A stretch of 64,000 nt of DNA, from the NCBI GenBank assembly GCA_033344915.1, contig JAWPML010000001.1, positions 1,422,369 through 1,486,368 on the forward strand, written 5' to 3'. The notes under the pieces were generated by a model. That model had not been told where the DNA came from. It did not search any database and was given only the letters and a program-made list of their open reading frames with translations. The position numbers and the translations under genes are program-made. Shown piece after piece: positions 52,542 to 61,535 of this stretch (positions within the stretch are counted from its first letter, which is position 1; each line of letters starts with the position of its first letter). This DNA comes from Acidimicrobiales bacterium (GTDB lineage Bacteria > Actinomycetota > Acidimicrobiia > Acidimicrobiales > Aldehydirespiratoraceae).

Positions 52542-53261
52542 TCAGCGGTGTGAGGGGCTGGCCCGTCGGGGTGAACCGAGCAGGGCCACGAGCAGACGGG
52601 CGTAGTGGTAGGCCAGCCGGAACGGTCGCTGCGAGGGAACCCCGCCGGCCCGCTCCCGCATCGCCGTCGGTACCTCGACCACACGATGACCGGCGCGGCA
52701 GGCGTTCACCAGGGTCTCCACGCTGTCCATGTACTCCACCGGGTACTCCGTCGCGAAGACGGTGAGGAGCGGGCCCTGCACGGCACGAAAGCCCGACGAC
52801 GTGTCCGTGAAGCGCTGGCCCGTGAGGGCGCGCACGCCGAGCCGGAGCAGCCCCATCGCCGCCCCGCGGCTCCGGCCGACGTCATAGCCGCCGGCCGCGA
52901 AGCGACTGCCCACCGCCATGTCGGCGCCGTTGTCGAGGGCGGCGAGGAGGACCGAGATCTGGTCCGCCCGGTGTTGACCGTCGGCGTCGAACTGGACCGC
53001 CCGCTTGAACCCGTTGTCCGCCGCGTACCGATAGCCGGCCCGCAGCGCGCCACCGATGCCGAGGTTGAAGGGGAGCGCGACGCAGGGAACGCCGGCGCCA
53101 CGGGCGACCGAGGCGGTCCGATCGTCGCTGCCGTCGTCGACGACGACCACCGCGAGGTCCGGCACGACGTCGGCCAGCTCGGCGAGGACTGCCGGCAGCG
53201 TTTCCTCCTCGTTGAACGCGGGGATGACGACGATCGCGTCGGCGCCGGCCCCGTGGCTCAT
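52542..53261 (-). CDS. Family 2 glycosyltransferase, DPM1-like
   Basis: A 239-residue GT2 enzyme without membrane helices. Motifs are AIVVIPAFNEEETLPAVLAELADVVPDLAVVVVDDGSDDRT, LPFNLGIGGALRAGYRYAADNGF, then AVQFDADGQHRADQI with the metal-binding D-A-D, and the acceptor region FTDTSSGFRAVQGPLL. Relatives transfer a sugar to a polyprenyl phosphate. Its ATG overlaps the stop of the flavoprotein by 4 nt, so both belong to one transcript. Confidence 0.9.
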   Translation of the reverse strand: MSHGAGADAIVVIPAFNEEETLPAVLAELADVVPDLAVVVVDDGSDDRTASVARGAGVPCVALPFNLGIGGALRAGYRYAADNGFKRAVQFDADGQHRADQISVLLAALDNGADMAVGSRFAAGGYDVGRSRGAAMGLLRLGVRALTGQRFTDTSSGFRAVQGPLLTVFATEYPVEYMDSVETLVNACRAGHRVVEVPTAMRERAGGVPSQRPFRLAYHYARLLVALLGSPRRASPSHR

Positions 53262-54709
53262 CCCGCGGACTCGCTGATCTCCTCGTGGTACTCCGCTTCG
53301 ACGTTGACCTCCCACACGTCGTGGGTCGTACCCGACACGATGTTCTCCACGGTCAGCATCGCGGTGTACATCGAGTGGTCCTGGTTGTTGTACCGATGCA
53401 TGCCGTTGCGTCCCACCGGATGGACATTCGTGGCGTGTTCCTCCAACCAGCGGCGAAGGATCTCCACGTTCTCCTTGTAGGTGGCGTCGTACATCGGATA
53501 CGCCTTGGGCATCCGGACCACGTAGCCCTTCTCGACCCGGTCCTCGGCCAGCAACCCGAGCTCGATCATCTCGCGGGTGCCCCGTTCGACGAGCGCGGCG
53601 TCGTCGCTCACCCACAGGTCGTCGCCCTCGTTCACGAAGTACTCGAGGCCGAGGCAGGTCTTGCCCGGTTCGGGGATCATCTCGGGCGACCAGGAACCGA
53701 AGTTCTGGATTCGGCCGACGGACACCTCGGGGGCGTGGATGTAGATCCAGTTGTCGGGGAAGCCGTCCTCCTCCGGGACCACGAGCGCGACCGTGAGGAA
53801 GTCCCGGAAGTCGAGGGACTTCGCCGCGAGCTGGATGTCCTCCGGCGCGGGCGGATCCATCGCCTGCACGAGCCGAGGGATCGGCATCGACGAGACGACC
53901 TCGGTGCAGGCGTGCTCGACCGGTCCGTCTGGGCCCTCGGTGACCACGTGGGTCGCGCGGCCGTCGCGATGGCGGATCCTGGTGACCGGCTGACGGAAGT
54001 GAACGTCGCTGCCCTGGGCGACCACGAGCTCGTGACAGCGCTCCCACATCATGCCGGGACCGTGGCGGGGGTACTCGAACTCCTCGATCAGGCTCGTGAT
54101 GTCCTTCTGGTTGCGGCTCGGCGTGATCGCGTTCCAGATGGCGCCGAAGAGGCTGAGGTTCTTGATCCGCTGGGCGGCCCAATCGGCCTCCAGTTCGTCG
54201 GCCGGCACGCCCCACACCTTCTCGGTGTAGGTCTTGAAGAAGGTGCGGTACAACCGCCAGCCGAAGCGGGCCGCCACGTAGCCCTCGAACGTCGACTGGT
54301 CCTCCGGCGGCCGGAAGCGGACCCACACGTAGGACAGCACGCAGCGCAGCGCTTCGATGATGCCGAGGTTTCCCAGCGCATTGAACGCCTTCAGCGGATA
54401 GTCGTAGAACTTCCCCTGGTAGTAGATGCGGCTCATCCGGGGCCGGAGCAGGAAGTCCTCGTCCGGCAGGATCTCGTGCCAGAGGTTCTGGACGGGCTTC
54501 ACCTTCGTGAAGAAGCGGTGGCCGCCGATGTCGAAACGCCAACCGTCTCGCTCCGCGGTCTGCGAGATGCCCCCCACGACGTCGGTGGCTTCGAGAACCG
54601 TCGCGGTGCGACCGGCCTTGCCCAGTTGGTAGGCCGCGGTGAGTCCGGCCGGACCCGCGCCGATGACCACGGTCCGAGCCGCCGTGTCGTTCCTCGTGTC
54701 GTCGCCCAT
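53258..54709 (-). CDS. FAD-dependent oxidoreductase, UDP-galactopyranose-mutase/protoporphyrinogen-oxidase-like
   Basis: A 483-residue flavoprotein. The FAD motif is VVIGAGPAGLTAAYQLGKAGRTATVLEATDVVGGISQT, followed by FDIGGHRFFTK. A middle segment (FFKTYTEKVWGVPADELEADWAAQRIKNLSL) is typical of a group found in polysaccharide gene clusters. The C-terminal FAD loop is near GMHRYNNQDHSMYTAMLTVEN. It is co-translated with the DPM1-like transferase, so a role in lipid-linked sugar or polyprenol chemistry is likely. TAAGAT at 54739-54744 and GGGGAGGGGG form its promoter and ribosome site. Confidence 0.85.
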   Translation of the reverse strand: MGDDTRNDTAARTVVIGAGPAGLTAAYQLGKAGRTATVLEATDVVGGISQTAERDGWRFDIGGHRFFTKVKPVQNLWHEILPDEDFLLRPRMSRIYYQGKFYDYPLKAFNALGNLGIIEALRCVLSYVWVRFRPPEDQSTFEGYVAARFGWRLYRTFFKTYTEKVWGVPADELEADWAAQRIKNLSLFGAIWNAITPSRNQKDITSLIEEFEYPRHGPGMMWERCHELVVAQGSDVHFRQPVTRIRHRDGRATHVVTEGPDGPVEHACTEVVSSMPIPRLVQAMDPPAPEDIQLAAKSLDFRDFLTVALVVPEEDGFPDNWIYIHAPEVSVGRIQNFGSWSPEMIPEPGKTCLGLEYFVNEGDDLWVSDDAALVERGTREMIELGLLAEDRVEKGYVVRMPKAYPMYDATYKENVEILRRWLEEHATNVHPVGRNGMHRYNNQDHSMYTAMLTVENIVSGTTHDVWEVNVEAEYHEEISESAG

Positions 54710-54788: not shown

Positions 54789-54968
54789 ATGCAGATCACG
54801 TGCCCCCGCTGTGCCACGCCGACCGACGTCGACTTCTACGGTCCGTGCAACTCCTGTCGGGACGAACTGCGGGCGACGATGGGGGCCGACGGCAGCGCGG
54901 CCGCGGCGGTGGAGTACGAGCCGAAGATGAACGTCACGCCCAACGCCGTCGCCCTGAAGGACGACTGA
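54789..54968 (+). CDS. Small zinc-ribbon protein
   Basis: A 59-residue protein: ITCPRCATPTDVDFYGPCNSCRDEL gives two C-x-x-C pairs (residues 5/8 and 19/22), followed by an acidic stretch and MNVTPNAVALKDD. It probably binds one zinc and acts as an adaptor or nucleic-acid-binding protein. ATG 54789 has GACACT 6 nt upstream, a weak version of the leaderless promoter. It is divergent from the flavoprotein. Confidence 0.7.
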   Translation: MQITCPRCATPTDVDFYGPCNSCRDELRATMGADGSAAAAVEYEPKMNVTPNAVALKDD

Positions 54969-54984
54969 GCCTCGAGACCGGGAC

Positions 54985-55051
54985 GAGAAAAGGAGAGAAA
55001 AGGAAGAGACCCCGAGTAGCCTCCCGGCTTTCACCGGTCAACTCCTCGGGG
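54985..55051 (-). terminator. Minus-strand intrinsic-terminator-like hairpin
   Basis: On the minus strand CCCCGAG (55051-55045) pairs with CTCGGGG (55016-55010). It is followed by a pyrimidine tract, TCTCTTCC then TTTTCTCTCC then TTTTC; on the plus strand this tract reads as a tandem GAGAAAAGGA repeat (54985-55004). It would end a transcript coming from the right. Confidence 0.55.
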
Positions 55052-55650
55052 CCTCGTGTCGGCTCCTTCACCTGGCGTGTGGCCACTCCCGTCGGTGTGT
55101 CCTGCCATATGGGGCCCTCCCTTGCGGGGATTGCCCTGAATCCCGGGTCCGAACGTCTCGGTCCCGTGAACCTGAATCAACCGTCGTACCTGGCGGTACC
55201 GGTCCGCTCCGACCCGCTGCCACCCCCGTCGGAGTGACCTCGTCTCGATGCGACCCTGACACGTACCTGCCTTCGGGTGTGTTCCCCCTCCCGGCCTCGC
55301 ACCCCACGGTGCGCTCCTGACGGTGGCGGACCCTCCGGCCGGCGCTGCCTCCCCGTCGCTCCCGGTGCCCCCGTCAGGACGCTCCGTTCGCTCCGGCTCG
55401 ACACCTCCGTGCCTCCGGTCGACCCGCCGGCTCCCTCTCGGGCTCCGGCCTGATCTTGCCGTGTCTCTGCGCTCGCTCCGCCCCCGAGGAACCCGACCCG
55501 ACCCTCCGGGCTTGCGCCCTTCCTGTCGTCTCGGCGTCCCGGAGACCTTGCTCCTGCGTCGACAAGAGGCATCCTGGGGCGGCCGGGGGCGGCGGTCAAG
55601 GGGTCCGGGCGAAATCCCCAGGGATCGGTGGGTAACCCACCGGATATCCC
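54990..55650 (-). ncRNA. Candidate structured non-coding RNA in the 686-nt gene-free gap
   Basis: The stretch 54969-55654 has no convincing coding frame. On the minus strand it contains many perfect stems: CCTGGGG/CCCCAGG (55573-55579 with 55616-55622), CCTGACGG/CCGTCAGG (55316-55323 with 55371-55378), GTACC-GCCA-GGTAC (55186-55199), GGGC-GCAA-GCCC with a GNRA loop near 55507-55518, and a 25-nt hairpin at 55112-55136 with a 2x2 purine internal loop. It ends in the terminator above. I could not match it to RNase P, tmRNA, SRP or 6S RNA. A long 3' UTR or decayed element is possible. Confidence 0.4.
55626..55642 (-). terminator. Perfect hairpin after the lytic transglycosylase
   Basis: CGGTGGG-TAA-CCCACCG, 7-bp arms, begins 12 nt past the stop at 55655. 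There is no T-tract, so it may be a terminator or the first stem of the downstream RNA. Confidence 0.4.
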
Positions 55651-55654
55651 CAAG

Positions 55655-56998
55655 TCAGTCGGCGTTCTCCACAGTTCCGACCACAGCCGAGCTCGGGGCA
55701 GGGGGGTCCGGGAGGGTGAAATCGGCGTATCGATCGGCGTGCCCGATGACGTCGTCGACGTACGCGCTCGAGTTGTTGTAGCCGAAGTAGGCGCGGCGCA
55801 GGTTGGCCCGACTCGACAGGTCCCCACCGATCGCACAGAGGTATCGGCCGGCGCTGTACGCGGCGTCGTACATGTTCTGCGGGTCCGCCCAGCCGTCGCC
55901 GCTACCGTCGCGGCCCCGGAGCAGCCACGTCTCGGGGATGAACTGGAGGGGGCCGACGGCGCGGTCCCAGACGTCGTCGCCGTCGAACTCGCCGTCGTCG
56001 GTGTCGTGGATCGCCCGCACCCCGGGGCCACCGTCGAGGGGGATGCCGATGATCGGGCGGTCGACGCGGCCGTCCGCGCGCAGCGTCCGCCCGCCGTAGC
56101 GGCCGTGACGACTCTCGATCCGGGCCACCCCGGCGATCATCCACCAGCGCGCGTTGCAGCTCGGCCAGACGTCGGCCAGCAGGTCCTCGGCGTTGAGGTA
56201 GGCGTCGAGGGCGACGACGGAGAGGTCGAGTCCGGGGATCCCGGCGGTCCAGCGCGCGCTGCGCACCGCCACTGCGGCGGCATCGACCTCGGCGAGCAGG
56301 GCGGGGACGGCGGTCTCGCGATCGCCGATCACCTGCGACGTCGACTCGATCTCGGCGGCGAGCTCGACCTGGCGGGCCAGGAGGTCGAGCTGCTCGCGCT
56401 CCGTCGAGCTCTGCCGGGCGAGGAGCTCGTCGCGGGTGGAGAACTGCACCTCGTCGACCCGTTGGCTCAACTCGGTCGACCGAGCCGCATCGGTGGCGAG
56501 GCTCGGGTCGTCCAGCCCGACCAGATCGTCGGTGCCGAAATTGAGGAAGCGGTCGAGGGCGCGGGCCCGCAGGATCACCTCGACGTCGGCGATGCGATCG
56601 TCGAGGGCGGCGACCTCGGCCGAGATGGCGGTGTAGTCCGTCTCGACACCGTCACGTTCCTCGGTCAGGGCGACGAGACGCTCCTGGGCCGACCGCAGGC
56701 GGCGGGTGTTGTCGTTGACGGCGAACAGGGCGGCGTCGAAGCGGTCCACCGCCGCCTGCCAGGTCAGACCCGTGAGTTCGAGCGCGATGATGCGGGGATC
56801 CAGGCGGTCGTCGGGGATGAGCAGGGCGACCGACGCCACCGCGTCCTCGGACGCCGCGGCAGCCGGTGCGGGGCCGTCATCGCGCAACGAGATCGCGGCC
56901 GCGACGATGGCGACCACCAGACCGATCGCGCACGCGAGCATGGCGGTGGACGCATAGTCGCCCCGCCGCCTCGGGCCATCGCTTCGGTTCGGAATCAC
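55655..56998 (-). CDS. Membrane-anchored coiled-coil lytic transglycosylase
   Basis: A 447-residue protein. It has one N-terminal membrane helix (about 18-38), a long alpha-helical coiled coil (about 85-235) and a C-terminal MltB/SLT-like domain. The catalytic glutamate is in IAGVARIESRHGRYGG near residue 293. The conserved fold motifs are DRAVGPLQFIPETW and DPQNMYDAAYSAGRYLC. It should cleave peptidoglycan glycan strands. GAGGTGG stands 7 nt before GTG 56998, with hairpin TGGACC-CGTT-GGTCCA (57014-57029) just above it. TAGAGT (57055-57060) is the candidate -10. Confidence 0.9.
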   Translation of the reverse strand: MIPNRSDGPRRRGDYASTAMLACAIGLVVAIVAAAISLRDDGPAPAAAASEDAVASVALLIPDDRLDPRIIALELTGLTWQAAVDRFDAALFAVNDNTRRLRSAQERLVALTEERDGVETDYTAISAEVAALDDRIADVEVILRARALDRFLNFGTDDLVGLDDPSLATDAARSTELSQRVDEVQFSTRDELLARQSSTEREQLDLLARQVELAAEIESTSQVIGDRETAVPALLAEVDAAAVAVRSARWTAGIPGLDLSVVALDAYLNAEDLLADVWPSCNARWWMIAGVARIESRHGRYGGRTLRADGRVDRPIIGIPLDGGPGVRAIHDTDDGEFDGDDVWDRAVGPLQFIPETWLLRGRDGSGDGWADPQNMYDAAYSAGRYLCAIGGDLSSRANLRRAYFGYNNSSAYVDDVIGHADRYADFTLPDPPAPSSAVVGTVENAD

Positions 56999-57057: not shown

Positions 57058-57843
57058 CTACCCAGTCGGCGTGGCGTCCGGCGGACCCCACCACTCGCCC
57101 CGTTCGACCAGTACGGCACGCAGATCCTCGGGCCGATCGGTCATGATGCCGTCGACGCCGAGATCCAGCAGTCGGTGCATTTCCGTGGGGTCGTTGATCG
57201 TCCACACGTGCACATGCGTGCCCAGCTTGTGGGCGTGGCGCACGAGTCGCTCGGTGACGACCGGGACACCCCGCACGGACACCGGCACCTGGAGGGCGTC
57301 GAACCAGCGGGCCGGCGTCGGCACCCCGCGACTGCGCAGCACGATCGCCGCGGTCTGGCGGGGCCCGGCGCTCACCGCGAGTCGCTCGCCCACGAGGGCG
57401 CGCACCGCGTCGATGCGACGGTCGCTGAACGACCCGACCATCACCCGGTCGACGGCGTCGGCCCGCAGGATGGTGTCGGCGAGCGGTTGCACCGCGGCGC
57501 CCGCCTTCGGGTCGAGATTCAACCGGGCCTCCGGAAACGCCTCGAACAACTCCTCGAGCCGCATGATCGGTTCGCTACCGTCCACCCGCGCCCGCCGCAC
57601 GTCGGCCCAGTCCATCTCGGCGATCACCCCGGTTCGATCGGTGACGCGGTCCAGGCGGTCGTCGTGGAACGCGATGGCGACGCCGTCGCGGGTGACATGG
57701 ACGTCCGATTCCAGATGGGTGAAGCCGAGATCGAGCGCATGCCGGAACGCCCGCTCGGTGTTCTCCGGATGCCGCTCCGCACCGCCGCGGTGGGCGAAGG
57801 CGATCGGATGGCCGACATCGAGATACGGATGGATCCTCGGCAC
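57058..57843 (-). CDS. Glycerophosphodiester phosphodiesterase family protein
   Basis: A 261-residue GDPD-fold enzyme. The N-terminal IAFAHRGGAERHPENTERAFRHALDLG carries the catalytic histidine and metal glutamate. LESDVHVTRDGVAIAFHDDRLDRVTDRTG carries the E-x-D and second histidine. The end VHVWTINDPTEMHRLLDLGVDGIMTDRPEDL is typical. It would release sn-glycerol 3-phosphate from deacylated phospholipids. The start is GTG 57843, with TACGGT 6 nt upstream on the minus strand. It is divergent from the SirB1-family gene, only 30 bp away. Confidence 0.93.
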   Translation of the reverse strand: MPRIHPYLDVGHPIAFAHRGGAERHPENTERAFRHALDLGFTHLESDVHVTRDGVAIAFHDDRLDRVTDRTGVIAEMDWADVRRARVDGSEPIMRLEELFEAFPEARLNLDPKAGAAVQPLADTILRADAVDRVMVGSFSDRRIDAVRALVGERLAVSAGPRQTAAIVLRSRGVPTPARWFDALQVPVSVRGVPVVTERLVRHAHKLGTHVHVWTINDPTEMHRLLDLGVDGIMTDRPEDLRAVLVERGEWWGPPDATPTG

Positions 57844-57849
57844 GGGGTC

Positions 57850-57867
57850 ACCGTAGTTGGCTACGGT
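57850..57867. promoter_or_regulatory. Palindromic bidirectional leaderless promoter
   Basis: ACCGTAG-TTGG-CTACGGT is a perfect 7-bp inverted repeat. Each strand reads TACGGT, ending exactly 6 nt before a GTG start: 57843 on minus, 57874 on plus. The whole intergenic region is 30 bp and neither gene has a Shine-Dalgarno sequence. Confidence 0.65.
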
Positions 57868-57873
57868 CGCCTC

Positions 57874-58656
57874 GTGAGCCCCGCTGACCGACTGGCCGAT
57901 CTGTTGTCGAGCGGCGCGGACGTCCCCCTGGCCGAGGCCCTGTTCCTGCTGGCCGAGGCCCGGCCCAGCGGCGGGCCGCCCGCCGCGGTCGGCATGGATG
58001 CGCTCGACGCGATCGCGCTCGCGTGCCCCGATGCCACGGTCGAGGGCCTGATCCGGCATGTCTTCGTGGATCAGGGATTCGCGGGGGATCGCACGGACTA
58101 CCACGACCCGCGCAACAGCTATCTCGACGAGGTCGTCCGCCGGCGGGTCGGCATGCCCATCACGCTCGCGGTCGTGCTCGTGGAAGTCGGCCGGCGTCTC
58201 GGGATCGAGCTCGTCGGCGTCGGCCTGCCCGGCCACTTCCTGGTGCGCGAGCGCGACGACCCGGAGGGGTTCATCGACCCGTACCACTCAGGCGCGCGGA
58301 TCGGGAGCGACGCCTGCATCGCCCGCTTCCGTTCGATCCACGGCGACGGCGTCCGGTTCCACGAGAGCTATCTCGACCCGGTGCCGAGTCGGTCGATCGT
58401 GCACCGCGTGCTCAACAACCTCACGGTCACGTTCCGCAGTCGGAGTCCCCGCGATCTCGACTGGCTCCTCGACCTGCGGCTGCGGATTCCCGCCGATCCA
58501 CCGGACCTGCGGGCCCTCGCCGACCTCTGCGAACTCCGGGGGCGCTACGACGACGCCGCCCTGCTCCTGGACCGCGTCGGCGCGACCGTGGCCGAAGAGG
58601 CGGCGCGAGACCGGATCAGCGATCGGGCGCTGCGCCTCAGAGCCCGGCTCAACTGA
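57874..58656 (+). CDS. SirB1/transglutaminase-core-2 family protein
   Basis: A 260-residue protein. The SirB1 core is YHDPRNSYLDEVVRRRVGMPITLAVVLVEVGRRLGIELVGVGLPGHFLVRERD, then FIDPYHSGARI. It is followed by the TPR-like end DLDWLLDLRLRIPADPPDLRALADLCELRGRYDDAALLLDRVG. The transglutaminase-fold cysteine is absent; LAVVLVEVG replaces the usual L-C/S pattern, so protease activity is doubtful. Function unknown. It is transcribed from the shared palindromic promoter. Confidence 0.85.
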   Translation: MSPADRLADLLSSGADVPLAEALFLLAEARPSGGPPAAVGMDALDAIALACPDATVEGLIRHVFVDQGFAGDRTDYHDPRNSYLDEVVRRRVGMPITLAVVLVEVGRRLGIELVGVGLPGHFLVRERDDPEGFIDPYHSGARIGSDACIARFRSIHGDGVRFHESYLDPVPSRSIVHRVLNNLTVTFRSRSPRDLDWLLDLRLRIPADPPDLRALADLCELRGRYDDAALLLDRVGATVAEEAARDRISDRALRLRARLN

Positions 58657-60972: not shown

Positions 60973-61535
60973 CCCGACCGTCGCTCGGGGGCGCCGTTCT
61001 GGCCGGTGGCACGTCGTCGCGGATGGGCACCGACAAGGCGCTCATCGAGATCGACGGACGCGCCCTCGTCACCACGGCGGTCGCCGCGCTGACCGCGGCC
61101 GGTGCATCCCCCGTCGTCGTGGTGGGCGGCGACCGACCCGCGCTCGAAGCGCTCGGCGTGACCTATGTGGGCGATCGCTGGCCGGGCGAGGGACCCCTGG
61201 GTGGGATCATCACCGCGCTCACCGCGATGAGCACGGACCTCGTGGCCGTGCTCTCGTGCGACCTCACCGACGCCTCCAGCATCGCCGTGCGGTCCGTCGT
61301 GGGCGCCCTGGGCGACGCGGACGTGGCCGTGCCGGTGGTGGACGGCCACGCCGAATGGCTCCATGCGGTGTGGCGCCGATCCGCGCGGCCAGCGCTCGAG
61401 TCGATGTTCGCGTCCGGCGTGCGGGCCCCCCGCCATGCGGTCGACGGCCTGCGGGTGGCCCAGCTGCTCGACGGTGATCCCTGCTGGTTCCACGACGCCG
61501 ACCGGCCCGAGGATCTCCCGTCCGGCTCCCGGTGA
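60969..61535 (+). CDS. mobA: Molybdenum cofactor guanylyltransferase
   Basis: A 188-residue nucleotidyltransferase. The GTP-binding start is GGAVLAGGTSSRMGTDKALIEIDGRALV, followed by VVVVGGDRPALEALGVTYVGDRWPGEGPLGGIITAL and the metal site in VAVLSCDLTDASS. MobA converts molybdopterin to the guanine dinucleotide form used by DMSO-reductase-family enzymes, such as the one at the left end of the window. GTG 60969 is nested in the DUF3151 stop. Confidence 0.88.
   Translation: MTRPSLGGAVLAGGTSSRMGTDKALIEIDGRALVTTAVAALTAAGASPVVVVGGDRPALEALGVTYVGDRWPGEGPLGGIITALTAMSTDLVAVLSCDLTDASSIAVRSVVGALGDADVAVPVVDGHAEWLHAVWRRSARPALESMFASGVRAPRHAVDGLRVAQLLDGDPCWFHDADRPEDLPSGSR

Follow-up and report, generated by a model that had tools for sequence, protein, structure and literature searches.

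A probable stand-alone structured RNA of ~560 nt in the Acidimicrobiales, with conserved fold, promoter, and terminator

The 64,000-nt stretch of DNA analyzed here (the window) lies on the single 4.48-Mb contig of an Acidimicrobiales bacterium (GenBank assembly GCA_033344915.1), and its gene-free interval at positions 54969 to 55654 very probably holds the gene of a stand-alone, noncoding, highly structured RNA of ~560 nt, read leftward from its own sigma-A-type promoter to an intrinsic terminator. By sequence comparison, this RNA is a long form of an Acidimicrobiales RNA family, with one predicted copy in the genome. The predicted fold, promoter position, terminator, locus, and three-part plan all emerge from comparison among relatives, and the conserved promoter and terminator, standing at the right places, argue for the predicted leftward transcript.

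The interval is bounded by a plus-strand open reading frame (ORF) of 59 codons that ends at 54968 and by a minus-strand transglycosylase-like gene that ends at 55655. An earlier note on this DNA had described 54969 to 55654 as gene free, hairpin dense, and closed by a minus-strand terminator, and had proposed a large structured RNA read leftward. That description is borne out: the hairpins and long-range stems that it listed, as well as the terminal stem with a T/C tract after it, are real features of the minus strand, and the size and leftward orientation agree with the RNA that we predict. The extent needs correction, however: the structured RNA proper occupies only ~55563 to 55001, positions 55564 to 55654 being promoter and upstream boxes. 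The note's further statement, that no other gap in the window exceeds 300 nt, is to be read against a crude gene caller that leaves 14 such gaps because it overlooks real genes (e.g., a glycosyltransferase at 52542 to 53261). Folded singly, the minus strand of 54969 to 55575 scores z = −6.5 against dinucleotide shuffles (0 of 20 as good), compared with z = −1.35 for the plus strand of the stretch (2 of 20 as good).

Fold and covariation

The fold was derived from an alignment of 22 complete sequences from eight genera of the window's own family, f1 (families, genera, genomes, and loci are designated by f, g, G, and L numbers), the window included, with a mean column identity of 65% and a length of 541 to 564 nt from the inferred start to the end of the terminal hairpin. 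One locus whose 5′ end was not recognized (L026) was left out, such that 22 of 23 were kept, and the partial loci L012, L014, L017, and L019 are not part of the set. The RNAalifold consensus energy of this alignment is −280.9, versus −131.0 ± 6.7 in 60 column shuffles made within conservation and gap classes (z = −22). The consensus comprises 155 pairs in 28 helices, and 85.5% of its 3352 cells are paired; 94 of the 155 pairs show at least one both-sided change (345 such cells), the strong compensatory change that supports the structured RNA proposed in the earlier note. When 3′ partners are shuffled, the means fall to 75.8% of cells paired, 62.2 both-sided pairs, and 142.6 both-sided cells, and none of 500 shuffles reaches the observed value on any of five measures. 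Sliding the partners by 1 to 3 columns leaves 34 to 46% of cells paired, although some advantage of the true register is expected, given that the fold comes from the same 22-sequence alignment; for this reason, other sequence sets matter.

Three such sets were considered. An alignment restricted to the genus (6 sequences) contains both-sided changes in 22 of 166 pairs. Family f54 (7 sequences, without L087, L091, and L086, the last being at the same place as L065) yields 198 pairs, 43 of them with both-sided changes versus 8 to 11 in slid versions, at 93.1% paired and z = −17.9. The short form in family f35 (16 sequences) has 80 pairs, 95.7% paired versus 33 to 51% when slid (z = −10.6).

Three-part plan of the RNA

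The RNA is modular: a 5′ domain is followed by a middle domain of very different size among relatives and by a conserved 3′ hairpin (coordinates in Table 1). The GGGC-GCAA-GCCC hairpin of the 5′ domain, already remarked on in the earlier note, corresponds to consensus helix 6, with 92.0% of its cells paired. Helices 7 and 8, which close the middle domain, have 80.0% and 98.5% of cells paired, respectively, and one both-sided pair each; among the three sequences from g8, two are closed by CGAC/GUCG instead of CGGC/GCCG. Inside this domain lie two nested long-range helices, helix 10 (91.8% of cells paired, both-sided change in 3 of 10 pairs) and helix 11 (89.2%, 4 of 6 pairs). Two further hairpins that the earlier note had picked out are likewise present in the consensus: the GNRA-type hairpin CCCCGCAAGGG is helix 24 (83.9% of cells paired), and the purine-loop hairpin given there as 55112 to 55136 is helix 23 (~55110 to 55136, 74.3%). 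The cap motif CCGNCGGG occurs 3.8 times per sequence in f1, versus 0.37 in dinucleotide shuffles.

The terminal hairpin consists of an outer stem of ~12 pairs, a conserved G·A mismatch, four pairs, a tandem G·A/A·G step (read from the sequence), and a short stem with its loop.

Distribution among relatives

Searched at the DNA level, 35 genomes from a panel of 61 that includes the window's own gave matches at an E value of ≤0.01, a number of which were short and weak. Of the six other genomes of the genus, five have nearly full-length matches, as do members of several further genera in the family; short matches in further genomes consist of the last 45 to 65 nt, which are 78 to 91% identical. 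This 3′ hairpin was captured in a model, R1, trained on 17 sequences (f1, 14; f10, f19, and f25, one each), and a 65-position segment of the body was captured in a second model, R2, trained on f1 only; E values for both are rough.

(i) Within the order, R1 matches 139 of 397 genomes (78 of 204 genera) at an E value of ≤0.01. The weaker of these matches include uncertain ones, and ~91 genomes by hand count remain at 1e-6.

(ii) For the class, R1 matches at 1e-6 in 39 of 296 genomes, of which 16 come from the order and 23 from outside it; in a sample of the phylum, 4 of 296 genomes match, two of them from outside the class.

(iii) R2 matches 17 of the 397 genomes of the order, all belonging to f1 or f54, with nothing convincing elsewhere among the 397. 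Family f54 is absent from the R2 training set, and its R2 matches precede the R1 hairpin by 134 nt (genus g135) or ~342 nt (genus g93). Family f54 is also recovered (best E value, 1.2e-13) with an nhmmer profile built from the f1 body.

Implied transcript lengths range from ~150 to 730 nt across the RNA family. In one locus (L102, from a genome of family f3), the RNA body at 171 to 631 contains 4.1 copies of a 112-nt unit (97% match) placed between promoter and 3′ hairpin; tandem duplication can therefore lengthen the middle part.

Promoter and upstream boxes

The predicted start, 55563, lies 7 to 8 nt past the −10 element. Family members share boxes like TGGGGATTTC, a TTGAC-like −35 element (altered in genus g3), a spacer of 16 to 18 nt, a −10 element, and a transcript ending at one hairpin. 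Anchored on R1 matches, the pattern TTGACN, 16 to 18 nt, [TCG]ANNNT, is present 130 to 800 nt upstream in 39 of 40 loci of the order's other families (antisense control, 1 of 40). Among loci of other orders, 15 of 16 have it (control, 0 of 16), and these 15 imply transcripts of 198 to 284 nt. Outside the class, two loci were read, L133 with the promoter and L134 without it. This count covers L072 to L111 (without L086), L117 to L134, and L136, leaving aside f1, f56, and L024 to L069. In a second set, assembled by regular expression, the promoter is present in 85 of 104 loci versus 2 of 104 in the control; here, 104 of 105 distinct loci were counted, with 17 duplicates and L036 to L039 skipped, and the set contains at least one false hairpin (L113, from a genome without the RNA). 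The regular-expression pattern overlooks the altered −35 element of g3 and most loci of f56. Both counts include close relatives, so their loci are not independent, yet the contrast with the controls is large.

In most loci of the order that were read, boxes resembling TGGGGATTTC or CTGTGGATTTC, two or three in number, stand at roughly fixed spacing 5′ of the −35 element; exceptions include L104 and L105, and none were seen in the other orders read. In the window's genome, the two-box pattern TGGGGATWTC-N12–30-TGGGGATWTC occurs once, at 55611 to 55652. A dedicated regulator likely acts on these upstream boxes. The possibility that the TGGGGAT boxes are DnaA boxes was dropped, the usual CACA half being changed.

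Conserved locus

In f1, the gene order is a glycerophosphodiester phosphodiesterase (GDPD), a lytic transglycosylase-like protein (SLT; genera g1, g7, g8, and g10 as far as read), the RNA, and then, in many but not all loci, an amine oxidase. Seven other families (f3, f28, f35, f44, f54, f56, and f57) likewise have GDPD or SLT on the upstream side; other hairpin loci have neither within the fetched flanks. No GDPD, SLT, or amine oxidase neighbor appears within the fetched 4 to 6 kb in other orders of the class, and homology there is therefore argued from hairpin and promoter spacing only. A small CxxC ORF stands on the 3′ side of the RNA in many loci of f1 and in L046, L048, and L093 of f28; its 59-amino-acid (aa) counterpart in the window has no Pfam match. 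In genus g2 of the same family (L112 to L114, three examined), GDPD is followed directly by the amine oxidase, with 93 to 106 nt between matches, an apparent clean loss of the RNA.

Two side observations concern neighboring sequences. Three Nocardia contigs (L036 to L038) carry two consecutive matches to the window's transglycosylase-like protein. At 61300 to 61399 on the plus strand, ARAGORN reports a tRNA-like gene of unassigned type with a four-base anticodon; Rfam finds no tRNA in the window.

Table 1. Positions, in window coordinates, of the predicted RNA, its parts, its promoter region, and neighboring genes
Feature	Position	Strand	Basis or remark
Structured RNA	55001–55563	-	Start inferred from promoter, end from hairpin; few nt either way
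Upstream box TGGGGATATC	55643–55652	-	Similar boxes 5′ of the RNA in most loci of the order read
Upstream box TGGGGATTTC, near −35	55611–55620	-	Similar boxes in relatives
−35 element TTGACC	55594–55599	-	Position and sequence kept in relatives
−10 element CAGGAT, 17-nt spacer	55571–55576	-	Conserved in relatives
5′ domain, closed by GUC/GAC, holding GGGC-GCAA-GCCC hairpin (55508–55519)	55463–55563	-	Helices 1 to 6
Middle domain, closed by CGGC (55458–55461)/GCCG (55060–55063) plus UCA/UGA	55060–55461	-	Helices 7 and 8
Middle-domain hairpin	55426–55449	-	Coordinates in window
Long-range 10-bp helix GGGUCGACCG (55416–55425)/CGGUUGAUUC (55174–55183)	55174–55425	-	Helix 10
Long-range helix GGCACG (55408–55413)/CGUGUC (55258–55263)	55258–55413	-	Helix 11
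Hairpin capped by CCGACGGG	55214–55243	-	Helix 19, both-sided change in 8 of 11 pairs
Hairpin capped by CCGACGGG	55081–55102	-	Helix 26, both-sided change in 8 of 9 pairs
3′ terminal hairpin/intrinsic terminator, most conserved element	55005–55056	-	98.3% of outer-stem cells paired; model R1
T/C-rich terminator tail	54987–55004	-	Sequence; terminator scan
Small protein, 59 aa, two CxxC pairs (MQITCPRCATPTDVDFYGPCNSC...NVTPNAVALKDD), converging on terminator	54789–54968	+	tblastn, f1 and f28 relatives
Lytic transglycosylase-like protein (SLT), upstream of RNA, same strand	55655–56998	-	Pfam SLT_2, 22.6 bits, just below cutoff of 24.3
Glycerophosphodiester phosphodiesterase (GDPD), start codon not fixed	57058–57885	-	Pfam PF03009, E value 1.7e-41
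Flavin amine oxidase-like protein	53258–54709	-	Pfam PF01593, E value 3.1e-22

Search for known RNA families

The search suggested in the earlier note, against Rfam 15 (4227 families), gave no match at the gathering threshold anywhere in the window, and a permissive search of the region gave a best E value of 0.6 (14.7 bits versus a threshold of 39). Two outcomes that the note had named as refuting its proposal, a hit to a known Rfam family and a lack of conservation or compensatory change among relatives, did not occur. No prior description was found among the matches listed in the open-license literature. Individual candidates were rejected as follows. The genome's single RNaseP_bact_a match lies elsewhere, ~190 kb away (C1:1669187–1669535; E value, 7.6e-81). 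For transfer-messenger RNA (tmRNA), neither ARAGORN nor Rfam has a match in the window, and for 6S RNA, no match exists anywhere in the genome at an E value of ≤1 to a covariance model that responds in 6 of 14 control genomes. The OLE, GOLLD, and ROOL families are included in Rfam, and none of its 4227 families matches. Identity with Ms1 is rejected by locus and fold: the HAD-IB hydrolase and oxidoreductase genes of an Ms1-type locus do not flank the RNA, whose neighbors are GDPD, SLT, and the flavin amine oxidase, and the consensus is three-part and multibranched, with 28 helices, rather than one long hairpin with a central single-stranded bubble. All five HAD-IB matches in the genome (four above the cutoff) are away from the RNA, and the 3.3- to 3.6-kb stretches around them contain no promoter of the pattern used.

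Discussion

The covariation in two families, the dedicated promoter, and the conserved locus back the RNA, in a genome without a 6S match and a lineage for which no described counterpart was found. Several points weigh against this reading. The reverse strand of the f1 alignment also folds better than shuffles (−191.2 versus −107.3 ± 6.1 in 40 shuffles; z = −13.8), an excess such as mirrored stems would give. In f35, both-sided changes are few (10 of 80 pairs versus 3 to 7 when slid), so support there comes from pairing rather than covariation; the covariation in f1 and f54 more than offsets this weakness. The body is not alignable outside those two families, where homology would instead be carried by the hairpin, the promoter, and, in some families, the locus. 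Family f56 has the hairpin and GDPD, mostly without the promoter pattern. R1 has no match in six listed g2 genomes or in G011 of g6, and two g5 genomes have no DNA match; as such, the RNA is not essential everywhere. Finally, transcription, transcript ends, and abundance are predictions, and the function is inferred.

As to role, we put forward, with the balance even between acceptance and doubt and with the partner left open, a trans-acting ribonucleoprotein, of which this RNA, abundant and stable, would form the core. Protein would dock chiefly on the conserved 3′ hairpin, with its G·A mismatch and tandem G·A pairs; the CCGNCGGG-capped hairpins that recur in the middle domain would make that domain a scaffold showing the same surface several times. 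A broader proposal, offered tentatively, is an RNA family spanning the class Acidimicrobiia, in which a fixed 3′ docking hairpin and 5′ domain would be combined with a middle domain enlarged from ~50 to ~400 nt or beyond (through tandem duplication in one genome), and which would replace 6S/Ms1 or constitute an equally central, undescribed ribonucleoprotein.

The most useful rival is the comparison with Ms1 and 6S, since the gene architecture is similar: in a lineage without detectable 6S, the RNA could be the acidimicrobial counterpart, binding RNA polymerase and so tuning how much of it is available. We regard this as rather unlikely. A single genomic copy, a sigma-A-like promoter, and a terminator would fit such a counterpart, as would implied transcripts of 198 to 284 nt in other orders (15 of 16 loci), a length close to that of Ms1, whose terminator is placed 304 nt from its start (PMC4191392). 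No recognized Acidimicrobiia appear in the Ms1 genus table of PMC9130861, and the string "acidimicrob" is absent from that paper. The lack of a 6S match in the genome at an E value of ≤1 is weak evidence, because the model detects 6S in only 6 of 14 control genomes. Against this counterpart stand the three-part, multibranched fold, unlike the one long hairpin with a central bubble that PMC4191392 describes for Ms1, and a locus that is not the HAD-hydrolase/oxidoreductase context of Ms1.

Two further alternatives to the ribonucleoprotein core are both improbable. In the first, the RNA is a CsrB-like sponge whose repeated CCGNCGGG-capped hairpins titrate an RNA-binding regulator. The excess of this motif in f1 (3.8 per sequence versus 0.37 expected) and its 0 to 5 copies per f54 sequence speak for it; however, it all but disappears in the f35 short form, whose 16 sequences contain one copy, and such loop repeats may equally serve tertiary structure. 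GGA, the CsrA motif, is not enriched (23.9 versus 23.3), nor is GGAGG (4.3 versus 3.9), as would be sought for anti-Shine-Dalgarno binding. In the second, to which we attach the same low likelihood, size, ornate fold, and a function without assignment recall a large RNA of the OLE/GOLLD/ROOL type, assembling with itself or with a membrane complex; the missing Rfam match and the existence of forms shorter than 300 nt within the family speak against it.

It is very improbable that the stretch, rather than forming a separate gene, belongs to the transglycosylase gene as its 3′ untranslated region or acts in cis. The stretch does come after that gene on the same strand, but a conserved dedicated promoter separates the two, other genera and families have GDPD rather than the transglycosylase gene upstream, and the next same-strand gene lies beyond the terminator. 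Chance structure or an overlooked protein gene, for which one could cite the long open stretches of GC-rich DNA, can be practically dismissed, being contradicted by the shuffled and slid controls, by many one- or two-base indels, and by the finding that no start codon opens a shared reading frame.

Few large structured RNAs are known from bacteria, and several of them have proved to be central machines or unusual assemblies. The range of implied transcripts from ~150 to 730 nt would let one test which part is the functional core, and the genus without the RNA offers a natural comparison.

Comparison with known RNAs

Four systems invite comparison. RNase P RNA (RF00010) is, like this RNA, large, structured, and matched once in the genome, at a separate locus. 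6S RNA (RF00013) resembles it as a stand-alone, housekeeping-type RNA and differs in its model of 187 positions, unmatched in this genome at an E value of ≤1. Ms1, described from mycobacteria and other Actinobacteria and bound by RNA polymerase core without the primary sigma factor, shares with it a single-gene arrangement, a sigma-A-like promoter, an intrinsic terminator, a weakly conserved body, and discovery via its locus, and differs (PMC4191392 and PMC9130861) in being a hairpin of ~300 nt with a bubble, in its HAD-hydrolase/oxidoreductase locus, and in a published table without Acidimicrobiia. OLE, GOLLD, and ROOL are likewise large (OLE, ~600 nt) and ornate, with a biochemical role that is open; what sets the present RNA apart from them is that its conserved 3′ hairpin persists while the size of its middle domain varies greatly.
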